Origin: Gemmatimonadota bacterium
Lineage (GTDB): Bacteria; Gemmatimonadota; Gemmatimonadetes; Gemmatimonadales; Gemmatimonadaceae
Direction of reading: 5' to 3'
Assembly: GCA_016874035.1 (NCBI GenBank)
Contig: VGVM01000001.1
Span: forward strand, 1 to 64,000
DNA length: 64,000 bases
In this document: in pieces, positions 19,763-26,337 of the stretch
Position numbering within the stretch: the first letter of the stretch is position 1
Layout of the letters: each line of letters opens with the position of its first letter
Made by a program: the position numbers and the translations under genes
The notes under the pieces: model-generated
Database searches by the model: none
The model's input: only the letters and a program-made list of their open reading frames with translations
What the model was told of the DNA's origin: nothing

Positions 19763-20467
19763 ATGAATCGTTTCGCCACCCGCATGACGTCCGCTGCGCT
19801 GACGGTCGCCTTTCTCTTCCTGCCTACCGCGCACGCGCAGGCGCAGGGCCTGAGCTTCTTCATTACCAGCGTCGGCTCCGGCGACGGGGCGAACCTTGGC
19901 GGGGTCGAGGGCGCGGACAAGCGTTGCCAGGACCTCGCCGCCGCGGCTGGCGCGGGTGCGCTCACATGGCACGCATACCTCAGCGTCGGGGCGGAGAACG
20001 GCAAGCCGGTGCAGAATGCGAAGGACCGGATCGGCAGCGGCCCGTGGTACAACGCGAAGGGCGTGAAGGTCGCCGAGAACGTGGCGGACCTGCACAGCGA
20101 CAACAACAAGCTGTCGAAGGAGAACTCGCTCACCGAGCAGGGCGCCGTGGTGAACGGCCGCGGCGACACGCCGAACACGCACGACGTGATGACCGGTTCG
20201 ACGCTCGACGGCATGCTCTTCACGGGCGCGAACTACGACAACTGCAACAACTGGCGGTCCAACAGTGCCGGGTCGGGTTCGGTGCGAGTGGGCCACCATG
20301 ATCGGCAGGGCGGTGGCGAGAACCCCACGTCGTGGGGTTCGGCGCACAACTCGCGCGGCTGCAGCCAGGACAACCTGCGCGCGAGCGGCGGTGCGGGCTT
20401 GTACTACTGCTTCGGGATGCCGCGCTCAGGCGGCGCCGACGGGATGGACGACAAGATCCGGGACTGA
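19763..20467 (+). CDS. Secreted lectin/endostatin-fold-like protein
   Basis: Signal peptide ending AHAQAQ; LSFFITSVGSGDGANLGGVEGADKRCQDLAAAAG...WHAYLS...GSTLDGMLFTGANYDNCNNWRS...LYYCFG; C-type-lectin/endostatin-like pattern by eye. Confidence 0.55.
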   Translation: MNRFATRMTSAALTVAFLFLPTAHAQAQGLSFFITSVGSGDGANLGGVEGADKRCQDLAAAAGAGALTWHAYLSVGAENGKPVQNAKDRIGSGPWYNAKGVKVAENVADLHSDNNKLSKENSLTEQGAVVNGRGDTPNTHDVMTGSTLDGMLFTGANYDNCNNWRSNSAGSGSVRVGHHDRQGGGENPTSWGSAHNSRGCSQDNLRASGGAGLYYCFGMPRSGGADGMDDKIRD

Positions 20468-20514: not shown

Positions 20515-23016
20515 TCACCGACTCGTTCCGACGCACGACCCGCCGACGGAAGCGCCAACCGCAAAGCGGAGCACGAGGACCGCATCGATGATTTCGATGC
20601 GTCCGTCGCAATTGGCGTCGCCCCGTGGAAACAGCTGCACCGTTGGCTGCACTTGCACCCCAGCCAGCGCCTGTTGGATGAGCAATGCGTCCACTGCGGT
20701 CACGGCGCCGTCGGCGTTGACATCACCGCGGAGTACTGCGGCGGACGTGCCGAAGTCGTAGGCCCAGATTCCCCGTCCGTACGTCGCGGCGACGATCCGG
20801 CCGGTCCGCGCATTGTACACGAGGTCCGTGACCCGAATCGTCGGGAACTCGCTTGCGCGCGCCCACGTTGCACCACCGTTTGGCGACTCCCAGACGCCCA
20901 GCATGTTGCCAACGAACAGGCGACCATTCGGTCCGAACGCTGAGGCTTGGGTCGTGACATCGGGGAGCAAGACGCCGATGTTGGTCCAGTTCGCCCCGCC
21001 GTCGGTCGTCAGCATCACATGCGCGGTTCCACTTGACGTAAAGGTGACCATCGCGCGCCGTGGATTTTCGGGATCCACGGAAATGTCGCCGACCGAGCGT
21101 GAGGGAAGCGCAGTGAGCGGGGTCTGCCAGGTTGCCCCGAAATCGGTCGAATAGCGGACGTTCGCGTCCGAGGTGCCGACGTAGATGATCGAGCTGTCAG
21201 AAGGCGCAACCGCGATCGCCGTGATGACACCGGAACCGCGAGTCAAGTCGACTGAAATTGCCGTCCAGAGCGTGCCGCTGCTTGACGTCCGATAGAGCCG
21301 TGCGCCACCGAAATACAACCTCGTGTTCCTCGAGGGGTCGATAACGAACGGCGCAATAAACGCTCGCCGCTCGTTCGCATCGATTCCTGCAGTGATACCG
21401 CGGTACGTCGCGGTGCGGGTGTCGACGCGAATCAGGTTTCCGTTCTGGCTCGATACGTACACGACGTCGGGGTTCGTGTGGTCCGTTGCCGTGAACGCGC
21501 CGTCTCCGCCGAAAATTCCGACCCACTGACCAAGCCCGTTTCGCGCGATGATCGTCCCGTTGTCCTGCATTCCCGTCAGTACGCCGCTGGGGTCTGTCGG
21601 GTGGAGCGACAGGCCGGGGTAATGCAGCGTTGTGGCGAGGCCGCTGTTGATCGCCAGGAACGAGTCGCCCGCGTCACGCGAGAGGAAGACGCCCCCGTCA
21701 CTTCCCGCGATGACGCGACGCGGATCGGCGGGGTCGACGACAACCACGTGCCAGTCGCAATGGATATTCGGTGCCACCTCGGTGAACGTCGCCCCGCCAT
21801 CGGTCGACCTGTACGCCCGGACGCCGCCGAGGTACATCCGTGACGGATGCGTGGGGTCGACGGCAATCATCAGGTCGTAGTTGCCTTGCGCGCCGAAGTT
21901 GTTGCGATTCGCGACCGCCGGCGGTGCCGTGACGCCAGCGGCCGAGAGCGTCGTCAGGGCATTCGAACCGTCATCCCACCGAAACAGCCCGCCAAACGTC
22001 GAGTTTACCGCAGACGCGACCATCCAGACCGATCCGGGTTGCGCGGGCGACACGGCCATCTCGATGCGGCCCACTGCATTCGCGCCGAACACATGCACGG
22101 GAATCCAGGTGCTCCCATAGTCCGTTGAACGAAACAACGCACCGGTCGTTGCGCTTGACCCTCGGCGGGCGGCGTACAGGACTGCGGGGTTCGCCGGATG
22201 TTGCACCACTTCCGAGAACGCACCCGACATGAGTTGTAACCACGTCGCTCCCGAGTTCGTGGATCGATACACCCCGCCATTTGTCGCGGCGAACAGCGTT
22301 GTGTTTGTCGCCGAACCCGCCGAACCTCGGTCAACGATGAGCGAGTAGAAACGATGGTTCCCTGCGCCCACCGAGGTCGCAAACGGAGCGACCGCAACAT
22401 TGATCCAGGATGCGCCGTCGTCGGTGGATCGCAGGATACCGCAGCCTTCGGTTGTCTCCGACGGTTCTCCCGTTGCGGCATACACGATCTGTGGATTGAC
22501 GGGATCGATCGCGACAACGCCGATCACGAGCGAGCACTGTGTGTCCGTCAACGGTGTCCACGACGCGCCCTCGTTGCTCGACTTCCAGACGCCGCCAGCC
22601 GACGTCCCGACGTAGAGGGTGTTGCGATCGGTGGGATGAAACGCGACCGTCGGTACGCGTCCCGCGTCCAGTTGCGGCAGCGAACCGAAGAATCCGTTGT
22701 CGCCATAGAACCCGAGCGGGCCGATGGATGTCCAGCGACCGGGAAGGCCAACGGGCATTGCTGCTGTCGGCCGGCTCAACGAGACTGCGCGCCACTTGTC
22801 GAAGGAAAGTCCGGTGGAGGCCGTGCTTGACCCGGGCGGCGCATCCCAGAGCGTGATGAGCGCCTCGCGCCGCCGTTCGGCGTTTTCCTCGGCCACAACC
22901 GGTCGTCCCTGTGCAGGGGTGGCGCGCGCGAGGGCACTCGCGACGACAAGCGCGAAGACGAGCGAGATAAGAGGCGCGGTCGCGCGGCCGATGATCCCGC
23001 CGCCGTTCGTGTTCAC
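20515..23016 (-). CDS. BNR/sortilin-type beta-propeller exoprotein with C-terminal dockerin
   Basis: Many blades such as VYRSTNSGATWLQL, LFRSTDYGSTWIPV, YRSTDGGATFTEV, MLTTDGGANWTNI; C-terminal GDVNADGAVTAVDALLIQQALAG...GDANCDGRIEIIDAVLVLRFAVG dockerin duplicate. Confidence 0.88.
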   Translation of the reverse strand: MNTNGGGIIGRATAPLISLVFALVVASALARATPAQGRPVVAEENAERRREALITLWDAPPGSSTASTGLSFDKWRAVSLSRPTAAMPVGLPGRWTSIGPLGFYGDNGFFGSLPQLDAGRVPTVAFHPTDRNTLYVGTSAGGVWKSSNEGASWTPLTDTQCSLVIGVVAIDPVNPQIVYAATGEPSETTEGCGILRSTDDGASWINVAVAPFATSVGAGNHRFYSLIVDRGSAGSATNTTLFAATNGGVYRSTNSGATWLQLMSGAFSEVVQHPANPAVLYAARRGSSATTGALFRSTDYGSTWIPVHVFGANAVGRIEMAVSPAQPGSVWMVASAVNSTFGGLFRWDDGSNALTTLSAAGVTAPPAVANRNNFGAQGNYDLMIAVDPTHPSRMYLGGVRAYRSTDGGATFTEVAPNIHCDWHVVVVDPADPRRVIAGSDGGVFLSRDAGDSFLAINSGLATTLHYPGLSLHPTDPSGVLTGMQDNGTIIARNGLGQWVGIFGGDGAFTATDHTNPDVVYVSSQNGNLIRVDTRTATYRGITAGIDANERRAFIAPFVIDPSRNTRLYFGGARLYRTSSSGTLWTAISVDLTRGSGVITAIAVAPSDSSIIYVGTSDANVRYSTDFGATWQTPLTALPSRSVGDISVDPENPRRAMVTFTSSGTAHVMLTTDGGANWTNIGVLLPDVTTQASAFGPNGRLFVGNMLGVWESPNGGATWARASEFPTIRVTDLVYNARTGRIVAATYGRGIWAYDFGTSAAVLRGDVNADGAVTAVDALLIQQALAGVQVQPTVQLFPRGDANCDGRIEIIDAVLVLRFAVGASVGGSCVGTSR

Positions 23017-23429
23017 GGCGCCCCCGTCAGCATGAACCGCAGCGCATTGGAGCGCCCGCGCGATGTCGTAATGCTCACATCGTACGGGCCCGTCGTGAGA
23101 GGCTGTGGCGGTGCTTCGCCGCGCAGTGGCCTCATCGAATCGTCGATCGGAACCACGAACCGGATTTCAGTTGCCGTGCGGCGCGGGACGTTGCGCAACT
23201 CGATCGGGCCAAAGTGCACCGTGTTCAACGAGTCGAAGCCGCGTCCGGTAATGACGACCTCAACAACTTCACCGCGTGACACGGTGCCGACAGCGGGAGA
23301 AAGGCGGCCCAAGGAGAGCCCCTGGGGCCGACAGGCCGCCATTCCTCCCAGGACCGATATGCCGACGCCGAGCGCAATCGTCGAGCGCACGAACCGGCAC
23401 GCATCCCTGGTCACGAGCGTCAGCGTCAA
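23013..23429 (-). CDS. Small exported IPT/TIG-domain protein
   Basis: LSPAVGTVSRGEVVEVVITGRGFDSLNTVHFGPIELRNVPRRTATEIRFVVP is TIG-like; start (TTG 23429 or GTG 23414) uncertain; stop overlaps the next gene's GTG. Confidence 0.7.
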   Translation of the reverse strand: MTLTLVTRDACRFVRSTIALGVGISVLGGMAACRPQGLSLGRLSPAVGTVSRGEVVEVVITGRGFDSLNTVHFGPIELRNVPRRTATEIRFVVPIDDSMRPLRGEAPPQPLTTGPYDVSITTSRGRSNALRFMLTGAP

Positions 23430-23890
23430 GGGATGGTCCCCGGGCGCACGACCAGAGAGTCGTGGACGGCGCGGGCACTCGCATCGTGCGCGTCGCGCAG
23501 CGTCAGGGTCCAGCGGGGTTGCGCCGTGGAAGCGCGACGCACGAAAGTCAGCGTGATCAGTGGTCCGTCCATGGCGCCACCAGGCCACGCCGCCGCGAGG
23601 TTGACCGCCGTGCCCGCGTCATGACACATGAAGAGTGGTTGGCCTTGCGCAGCCGCACACGCAACGAAGGTCCACTCGGCGGCATCGTTGCGCAGTGAGG
23701 CCGTGATGCTGCCGAGCACGCGGTTGGATCCGCCGTTGAGTGTCAAGGAGACGGCCTGGGTGTCGCCCCGCACGGCACCGAGCGTCACGGCGATCGTCGC
23801 CGGTTGTGCCGGCGCGGGGACGGCAAGGTCGCTGGCGTGCCTGCAGCCGACCGCCACTGCCGCGAGCACGAGCGCGAAGGTGCGCCTCAT
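23426..23890 (-). CDS. Small lipoprotein with cohesin-like domain
   Basis: Lipobox AAVAVGC; TIAVTLGAVRGDTQAVSLTLNGGSNRVLGSITASLRND...VNLAAAWPGGAMDGPLITLTFVRR. Confidence 0.6.
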   Translation of the reverse strand: MRRTFALVLAAVAVGCRHASDLAVPAPAQPATIAVTLGAVRGDTQAVSLTLNGGSNRVLGSITASLRNDAAEWTFVACAAAQGQPLFMCHDAGTAVNLAAAWPGGAMDGPLITLTFVRRASTAQPRWTLTLRDAHDASARAVHDSLVVRPGTIP

Positions 23891-25671
23891 GGGATGATCA
23901 CCACTGGGTTCATGACACTGACTGCTGCCGTCAGGTCTGCCAGCGTGGCGGAAACCAGCTGGTTGACGGTCAGTACTATTTGGTTGCCGACGCCACGCTG
24001 GTTCACGCGGCACCGGAGAATCACGAGGGGAATGACTCCGGAGGCCGGTGTGCTCCCTGCCCATGTGACGCGCAACTGGTCGCCAAGCACATCGCCGCGA
24101 TTCAAGATCATATTTGGCTGGAGGGCATTGAATCCGGTGACCGTGAACGGCGAATACGGGAAGGAACTCGCGCCTGGCCATGAGACCTCGAAGTCCCCCG
24201 CCATCACCGATTGCCCGTCGCGCAGTTCCAACTGCACGACGATGGAGAACGTGTCCACGACCGCGAGCCGGTAGGTATCCAGCCCTGTGCGGAGGACCGG
24301 GCCCGTCGTTCCGCTCGGCACATGGATCAGGACGGAGTCGGCCACCGCAGTCGCGAACGGTGATTGCGCAACCACAAAGGTCCGCCCGGGGCGAACGCCC
24401 GTGACCACCCCGGAGGTCGAAACGCGTGCGCGGGTGGAATCGCGCACGACCCAACGCACTCCCGTCGAGGCAATTGTGCCGCCCGAGGCATTGGTTGCGA
24501 GCGTCGTCATCTGCGCTGAGGCCGATTGGTTGCCGAGCGCAAGCGCGCGGCGCAACGAATCGCTGGCGGAGGTAGACGCAGTAATGCGTGCGGGGCGCAG
24601 GGACGCATCCGGCAGTGTGGTCGCGACGCTGCGCGACGTCACCGGCTGGAGGCCCTGAGCGGAGAATGTCACGGTTCGCGACGATGCCGCGCCGTAGAAG
24701 GTGAGTCCGCTGAACGATGCCCTCCCATCTGCATCGGTGGTCGCCGTGTTCCCGCCGAGTGCGTCTAGTTCACCGGCAATCGTCGCCGTCACCAGGGTTC
24801 CGCTTCCTGCAGCGGCGTTGCCGACGCTGTCGGCCATCGCCACGACGGGGGTCGGAGCGATCACGGTGCCCAGCGTAGCCGCACCGGGCAGGTCCGTGGC
24901 CATTGTCAGTGCCACGGGCAGTCCGCCGAGCAGCGTCAACGGCACTGTGACTGGTTGGGCAATTGAGTCAGCGGCGAAGCTCAACGTTCGGCTTCCGGCG
25001 CGGCCCGCGATACGAAGCCCGGTAAACGTCGCAACGCCGAACTGGTCTGTTGCCAGCGCAGGCGGATCGGCGTTCGGGATGCTCAACCGCGTAATGCCGG
25101 TTCCACCGCTGACCTGCGCTGTCACGCGGCGTCCCGCGATCGGCGAAGCGTTTCCGAAGCGATCCCGCAGCTGCACCGTGACATTGGACGTCAACGCGAC
25201 ACCGCTGCGAAACGTCGGCGGTGGCGCGGCGGACAGCTGGAGTGCCGCCGGGGCGTCGGCCGTCGCGGTGACGGCATACTGCGTGCTGACACCCGCGCTG
25301 GAGATCGTAAGCGTGTTGGGTCCGGTCGCGGTGCCGAGCGTCCAGCCCGTGCATCGGGCGCGACCGCTGCCATCAGTGGTGGTCGAGGGCGTGCCGATGG
25401 AGCCCCCATTATCCGCAGTGCACGTGACCGCGAGGCCGGGAACGGCCCGATTTCCACTGGCAAGGAAGGTGGCTTCGAATGGCCCTGCCAGGGTCGACGC
25501 CACGGTGGCGGTGCGCGGGGCCGTCGATGGCTCCGCTCGGGCCGTGGTCGCCACCAATGGCTCACTCGGCACGCCGCCACCACCGCCGCAACCCAAGGCG
25601 GCCAGCAGCGTCAGGAGCCCAAGGCGTACGACTGGAGGTTGTGAACTCATCCGATGCGAAAATTCGCTCAT
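23887..25671 (-). CDS. Ig-like-repeat lipoprotein with C-terminal cohesin-like domain
   Basis: Lipobox LAALGC; multiple Big-type repeats (LPVALTMATDLPGAATLGTVIAPTPVVAMADSVGNAAAGSGTLVTATI); C-term VVDTFSIVVQLELRDGQSVMAGDFEVSW...GDQLRVTWAGSTPASGVIPLVILRCRV. Confidence 0.7.
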   Translation of the reverse strand: MSEFSHRMSSQPPVVRLGLLTLLAALGCGGGGGVPSEPLVATTARAEPSTAPRTATVASTLAGPFEATFLASGNRAVPGLAVTCTADNGGSIGTPSTTTDGSGRARCTGWTLGTATGPNTLTISSAGVSTQYAVTATADAPAALQLSAAPPPTFRSGVALTSNVTVQLRDRFGNASPIAGRRVTAQVSGGTGITRLSIPNADPPALATDQFGVATFTGLRIAGRAGSRTLSFAADSIAQPVTVPLTLLGGLPVALTMATDLPGAATLGTVIAPTPVVAMADSVGNAAAGSGTLVTATIAGELDALGGNTATTDADGRASFSGLTFYGAASSRTVTFSAQGLQPVTSRSVATTLPDASLRPARITASTSASDSLRRALALGNQSASAQMTTLATNASGGTIASTGVRWVVRDSTRARVSTSGVVTGVRPGRTFVVAQSPFATAVADSVLIHVPSGTTGPVLRTGLDTYRLAVVDTFSIVVQLELRDGQSVMAGDFEVSWPGASSFPYSPFTVTGFNALQPNMILNRGDVLGDQLRVTWAGSTPASGVIPLVILRCRVNQRGVGNQIVLTVNQLVSATLADLTAAVSVMNPVVIIP

Positions 25672-25858: not shown

Positions 25859-26337
25859 GCGTGATGGGTGCGTTCTGGGCGACCGGCGCGGCGTTCACGC
25901 GCGAGGCGGCGGTGGGCGTGATCCTCGTGATCGGGCTGGCCGTGAGCCACAGCGTGCTGCTGGTGGATGCCGCGCTCGAGCGGCGCCGACGCCGGGGGTA
26001 TGCGGCCGGAAGAATGGCCGGGCTCCGAGGGCTGACGGGTGCGGAAGTGCTCCGGGCCGCGCTGGACCGTTCGGGCATGATCGTCCTGGTGACGTTGACC
26101 ACCCTGGCCTCCCTGCTGCCACTGGCCTGGGGGACGTCGGCGACGACCCTTTTCGGGGCGATCGCGTTGGCGACGGCCGGGGGGACCATTGCCGGGATCC
26201 TTGGGGCGATGTTCGTGCTCCCGGCCCTGATCATGGCCTGGGGGCGGGGGAGGCGGACCGCGGGGCCCCTCCCGCCGGGCCCGGCCGGTGCTCGACTGGC
26301 GCCCGTCCCGGTAACTGACGTAAGTTCAACCACTTAA
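25859..26337 (+). pseudogene. C-terminal remnant of an RND (AcrB-like) efflux transporter
   Basis: FTREAAVGVILVIGLAVSHSVLLVDAALERRRR...RSGMIVLVTLTTLASLLPLAWGTSATTLFGAIALATAGGTIAGILGAMFVLPAL is the last TM section of an RND pump; N-terminal ~85% missing. Confidence 0.65.

Follow-up and report, generated by a model that had tools for sequence, protein, structure and literature searches.

A four-gene operon of Gemmatimonadota predicted to tether a dockerin-bearing propeller through two cohesin-like lipoproteins

Why would a non-cellulosomal bacterium retain two cohesins for one dockerin, and what would they hold? Cohesin-dockerin pairs are among the strongest natural protein fasteners, and many organisms are known to have cohesins and dockerins outside cellulosomes. 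The question is raised here by four genes in the first 64,000 nucleotides of contig VGVM01000001.1 from a Gemmatimonadota bacterium (assembly GCA_016874035.1; genome size 3.08 Mb, completeness 99.5 %), the whole stretch being called the window below. Genes 1 to 4 all lie on the minus strand at 20515-25671, and consecutive pairs share exactly 4 bp, namely ATGA at 23887-23890, TTGA at 23426-23429 and GTGA at 23013-23016. These coordinates and overlap sequences verified the chain of four coupled open reading frames (ORFs) described in an earlier, sequence-only reading of the window. We consider it probable that the four products make up a tethering complex complete in itself, with one dockerin and two cohesins, by which a propeller protein would be kept at the cell envelope as a binding head, most likely on the outer face.

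By lipobox pattern, three lipoprotein genes precede one propeller gene. Gene 1 (23887-25671) encodes a 594-residue lipoprotein with lipobox ALGC28, immunoglobulin-like repeats (Big_1/Big_2-like, with weak Ig-like Pfam matches only) and a C-terminal cohesin-like domain (23890-24324). Gene 2 (23426-23890) encodes a 154-residue lipoprotein with lipobox AVGC16, nearly all of which is one cohesin-like domain (23432-23824). Gene 3 (23013-23429), whose TTG start lies inside the overlap, encodes a 138-residue protein in which a TIG domain (residues 42-129, 23043-23306) scores just above the Pfam cut-off (21.8 bits against 20.9); the small TIG protein of the earlier description was thereby confirmed, and lipobox MAAC33 is added to it. 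In all three products the lipobox cysteine follows an N-terminal hydrophobic stretch, and the same pattern call applies to most gene 1-3 orthologues whose start lies inside the contig. Gene 4 (20515-23016), which begins with GTG inside the overlap, encodes an 833-residue secreted protein with a signal-peptide-like N-terminus, a Sortilin/BNR propeller region (residues 78-756, 20749-22785; Sortilin-Vps10, 101 bits) and a C-terminal type I dockerin (20569-20727).

A Pfam search with the cohesin family PF00963 gave no match in the products of genes 1 and 2, nor anywhere in the genome, and among the seven gene-2 orthologues it matched two, at best with E 0.011; therefore fold and profile comparisons were used instead. 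Alignments were made of the last ~142 residues encoded by gene 1 and of the whole of gene 2, each with six orthologues. AlphaFold2 predicted nine-strand sandwiches for both domains, with a pLDDT (predicted local distance difference test) of 73 for gene 1 and 77.6 for gene 2. When these models were compared with the PDB by Foldseek, cohesins were the top-ranked matches of both, the best being a clostridial cohesin-dockerin complex for the gene 1 domain (6kgd, E 1.3e-5) and a non-cellulosomal cohesin of Archaeoglobus fulgidus for gene 2 (2xdh, E 1.3e-6). Other folds stood lower in the Foldseek lists, including the adhesin domain 9ifr, a carbohydrate-binding module (CBM2) and a BslA-like fold. 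In hhalign comparisons with PF00963-positive cohesins of related gemmatimonad genomes, both domains reached probability 98 and E 1e-13, and none of the controls (reversed alignments, the propeller, the TIG family and the Ig-repeat portion of gene 1) reached 1 %. When PDB sequences were searched with profiles of the cohesin-like alignments, nothing or only chance ankyrin matches came up. With the cohesin-like profile, exactly two matches were found in the genome, both in the operon and on separate proteins; that of domain 1 has E 3e-41 in a search whose alignment contains domain 1 itself. The reversed-protein control gave zero cohesin matches. Because the predicted folds and the profile-profile matches stand beside clean controls, the models indicate that both lipoprotein domains are cohesins, too diverged for Pfam. 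Thus the cohesin-like assignment of the sequence-only reading is supported not by Pfam but by AlphaFold2/Foldseek and profile-profile comparison; the outcome that would have spoken against it, that neither domain adopts a cohesin fold, was checked, and both are predicted to adopt it.

The dockerin of gene 4 was recognised directly. Dockerin_1 (PF00404) matches residues 764-815 at 36.2 bits against a cut-off of 22.9, so that the sortilin propeller with two dockerin repeats stands as first described, and this dockerin is the only PF00404 match of its kind in the genome. Its two F-hand repeats carry the Ca-binding loops DVNADGAVTAVD and DANCDGRIEIID, and both loops align in the orthologues. Propeller-dockerins whose C-terminus lies in the contig have two cysteines in common, one within Ca loop 2 (DANC/DADC/DTNC) and one close to the C-terminus. 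They correspond to C803 and C828 of the window protein, the latter just beyond the dockerin interval, and the pair may form a disulphide clasp. Two propeller-dockerins of other loci (L100:3179-5668 and L102:5560-8049) have a first Ca loop without acidic ligands (GNVTATGTLSALD) and an intact second loop.

The same four-gene order was found in relatives and in named metagenome-assembled genomes of Gemmatimonadota. After three records present twice were dropped, 33 propeller-dockerin loci were counted. One or more cohesin genes lie immediately upstream in every one of them (33/33); 28 loci have two cohesins and 27 a TIG gene, with 4-bp overlaps at most junctions. Whether homologues of the four genes occur together had been proposed as a check, and they were found together in many Gemmatimonadota genomes. 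An origin by chance or artefact was rejected, since gene order and overlaps of -4 recur in dozens of loci and the reversed controls were clean. In a tree of 56 cohesin domains, cohesin 1 and cohesin 2 form two separate clades (support 100/99). Domain distances are correlated between cohesin 1 and the propeller (r 0.97) and between the cohesins and the dockerin (r 0.75-0.80), a sign of joint inheritance, not of binding. Seven dockerin-less sister propellers from other families of the phylum (L186-L191 and L193) have no cohesin adjacent, and the TIG gene is kept beside those of L188-L191. The record of one locus, L116 (CALQGY020000011.1), is titled Candidatus Kuenenia stuttgartiensis; its four-gene operon is of the usual gemmatimonad type, at 65 % identity, and the record is probably mislabelled or from a mixed bin.

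Co-occurrence was also seen at the level of whole genomes. Among 149 genomes, 23 have both a two-repeat dockerin and a cohesin-like domain, 4 the dockerin only, 9 the cohesin only and 113 neither (Fisher p 6e-16, phylogeny not corrected); within the genus (18 genomes) the corresponding counts are 9, 0, 0 and 9. A cohesin-like domain lies on the same strand at most 8 kb away from 31 of the 46 PF00404 matches. The matches without a nearby cohesin are mainly half-dockerins, with the M6-peptidase loci of G066 and G086 and one contig end making up the others. Half-dockerins are partial profile matches, mostly in long proteins, which were kept apart from two-repeat dockerins.

The best pointer to an anchoring role is an exchange of tails. 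Homologues of the propeller outside the phylum are mostly from Bacteroidota, at ~30 % identity, and 48 of 56 carry at their C-terminus a type A sorting domain (TIGR04183) of the type IX secretion system (T9SS); a type B match was found in two members. The dockerin occupies the place at which these homologues carry the sorting domain, and it would stand in for that sorting and anchoring module. Taken with the co-occurrence and with the cohesin-free, dockerin-less sister propellers, this exchange supports the idea of paired adaptors put forward in the earlier reading, for which the following mechanism is proposed. Genes 1 to 3 would give three lipoproteins anchored in the envelope, with a cohesin forming the end of one and making up another. 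Gene 4 would give a secreted beta-propeller whose C-terminal dockerin, Ca-loaded and probably disulphide-clasped, plugs into the cohesins of lipoproteins 1 and 2, presumably in a calcium-dependent manner. The propeller would thus be tethered at the envelope, most likely on the outer face, for binding a ligand rather than for catalysis. As speculation, two kinds of cohesin for one dockerin might offer two attachment sites or a relay from an inner to an outer position.

Several points weigh against this tethering complex. The docking of dockerin and cohesins is what we infer from sequence, the lipoboxes of genes 1-3 are pattern-based calls, and the two AlphaFold2 models were built on 7 sequences each and reach pLDDT 73-78. 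The 33 loci overstate the number of independent cases, which is smaller because some loci are near-copies of one another (such as L100/L102, L108/L141 and L009/L196). In addition, the 9 genomes with a cohesin-like domain and no detected two-repeat dockerin, and the 4 with the reverse, do not follow the pairing. Finally, lipoproteins of diderm bacteria may face the periplasm, and for display the product of gene 4 would first have to cross the outer membrane.

The last two points lead to the alternative that survives best, that the same docking takes place on the periplasmic side, where the lipoproteins would hold the propeller in an envelope-internal complex, for example in quality control or assembly, and nothing is displayed. 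BNR propellers such as Ycf48, a weak match here, work inside cells, and profile searches with the T9SS sorting tails TIGR04183 and PF18962 found no match in the genome. However, the T9SS tails on most homologues outside the phylum are marks of secreted or surface proteins. The genome also encodes a homologue of the SprA/Sov T9SS translocon (G000:C7, L201:6020-12160; 2046 residues, TIGR04189 at 573 bits against a cut-off of 200), and we regard the periplasmic arrangement as unlikely. PorV-family proteins are likewise present (104 bits, cut-off 90), and this SprA/PorV-like translocon may have a part in exporting the propeller. A survey in 2016 had described T9SS as restricted to Bacteroidetes (PMC4793230). 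It might even be supposed that Gemmatimonadota replaced the sorting domain of a type IX-secreted propeller with a dockerin, with cohesin lipoproteins as detachable receptors instead of sortase-and-lipopolysaccharide attachment and with export by the SprA/PorV-like translocon encoded in the genome studied here, in spite of its lack of recognisable sorting tails; we hold this scenario to be doubtful.

A second alternative is a polymer or fibre, in which cohesin and dockerin link units end to end in the manner of adaptor scaffoldins, the four-gene operon being its capped form. Related loci do encode cohesin and dockerin fused in one protein (L063, L065, L074, L077 and L088), and a third cohesin, fused to TIG, occurs in G013, G015 and G016. 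In the window, however, no single protein carries both modules, so no chain could grow from these four proteins alone, which makes a fibre improbable here. We give just as little credence to the proposal that the cohesin-like domains bind a glycan or wall component, that the dockerin is a mere Ca-stabilised tail, and that the linkage is only operonic. The CBM2 and BslA-like folds further down the Foldseek lists, and the cohesins without detected dockerin in some genomes, would fit such a ligand; against it, cohesins head both lists, the dockerin-less sister propellers lack a cohesin though several retain TIG, and no cohesin neighbours were found for half-dockerin matches.

The remaining question is whether the propeller could be an enzyme. 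Its nearest solved structures are GH74 xyloglucanases (E 1e-21), to which the sequence is distantly similar along both halves, and the NCBIfam glycosylhydrolase model NF045728 matches it below its cut-off. Two of these structures, 2cn2 and 2cn3, differ at one site in the motif YARADIGG, with Asp in the former and Ala in the latter; we take this site to be the catalytic D70 of CtXgh74A and 2cn3 its D70A mutant. The D70 position is Ser, Ala or Pro in all 7 gemmatimonad orthologues. Since this first catalytic Asp is not conserved, a GH74 enzyme identity was rejected, and the propeller is read as a binding head, probably non-catalytic. The earlier statement that no glycoside hydrolase is encoded nearby was judged from the propeller alone and holds in part: the propeller itself is GH74-like, and its D70 site is replaced. 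A simple cellulosome or GH74 xyloglucanase complex, for which the E 1e-21 match and the dockerin-bearing GH74 enzymes known from Clostridium thermocellum would speak, is scarcely credible and was rejected, as the genome has a single dockerin, two cohesins on separate proteins and no multi-cohesin scaffoldin, and the D70 position is altered in 7/7 orthologues. The family GH48, a signature of cellulosomes, gave zero matches in the genome and zero in the control genomes too.

The preferred tethering complex can be compared with several known systems. Archaeoglobus fulgidus, a non-cellulolytic archaeon that supplies the best structural match of gene 2, likewise has very few cohesins and dockerins, but in the present case a conserved four-gene operon places the cohesins on lipoproteins of a bacterium and the dockerin on a propeller. 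The cellulosomes of Clostridium, Acetivibrio and Ruminococcus share the cohesin fold and the two-repeat type I dockerin, whereas the genome studied here has no recognised catalytic cargo besides its lack of a scaffoldin and its single dockerin. The Bacteroidota propellers with TIGR04183 belong to the same BNR/sortilin family and carry a C-terminal module at the same place; in the present operon the dockerin replaces that tail, and the cohesin lipoproteins would supply the anchor. Another such system is the 'planctosome', a hypothetical non-canonical cohesin-dockerin complex proposed for freshwater Planctomycetes (PMC6461901). It is also a non-cellulosic complex in a diderm phylum, with a lamin-tail-domain anchor, an adaptor protein and peptidase cargo in contrast to the lipoprotein anchors and propeller here, and M6 peptidase-dockerin proteins also occur in related gemmatimonads.

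A 2024 survey that screened 305,693 genomes for cellulosomes retained a genome only if it encoded multi-cohesin scaffoldins together with glycoside hydrolases bearing dockerins; Gemmatimonadota are never named in its text (PMC11557425). Among the papers searched, none was found to treat gemmatimonad cohesins or dockerins beyond an incidental mention. Non-cellulosomal use of these modules has so far been a matter of scattered hypotheses, and here a cellulosome-type fastener seems to be used for holding a single protein at the envelope. A one-operon system that recurs across a phylum and has one dockerin and two ancient, distinct cohesins is of a size that allows it to be tested in its entirety. 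The cell surface of Gemmatimonadota is poorly known, and the exchange of C-terminal anchoring modules, T9SS tail or dockerin, on one conserved cargo could reveal how it is built. Such a pair, minimal by nature and possibly clasped by a disulphide, might be of use as a display tool as well.

Further dockerin-related proteins were noticed in the phylum. The dockerin-less sister propellers L188:6865-11865, L189:6606-9929, L190:6626-10267 and L193:6810-10283 finish with LDxxGNxDGxYNxGDFL, a recurring motif that resembles one Ca loop and has the look of half a dockerin; no cohesin lies near them. Other dockerin proteins are L066:2564-4456, L067:1391-3202 and L077:8991-12323; in a scan of L066 and L077, kinship to M6-family metalloproteases is clear for L066 and weaker for L077. 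The lipoproteins adjoining L066 and L067 were not matched by the cohesin profile and may represent cohesins that have diverged further. Giant proteins of L062, L065 and L074 carry a dockerin near the N-terminus, directly after a cohesin-like domain in L065 and L074, and some of these giants stand several in a row within one locus.

Two neighbours flank the operon in the window. Just upstream, on the plus strand at 25861-26337, a 158-residue ORF shows similarity to an RND/SecDF-type transporter, confined to the transporter's C-terminal end, and is possibly a gene remnant. At 19763-20467, convergent toward the 3' end of the operon, lies a gene for a secreted protein with a sub-threshold DUF1554 match.

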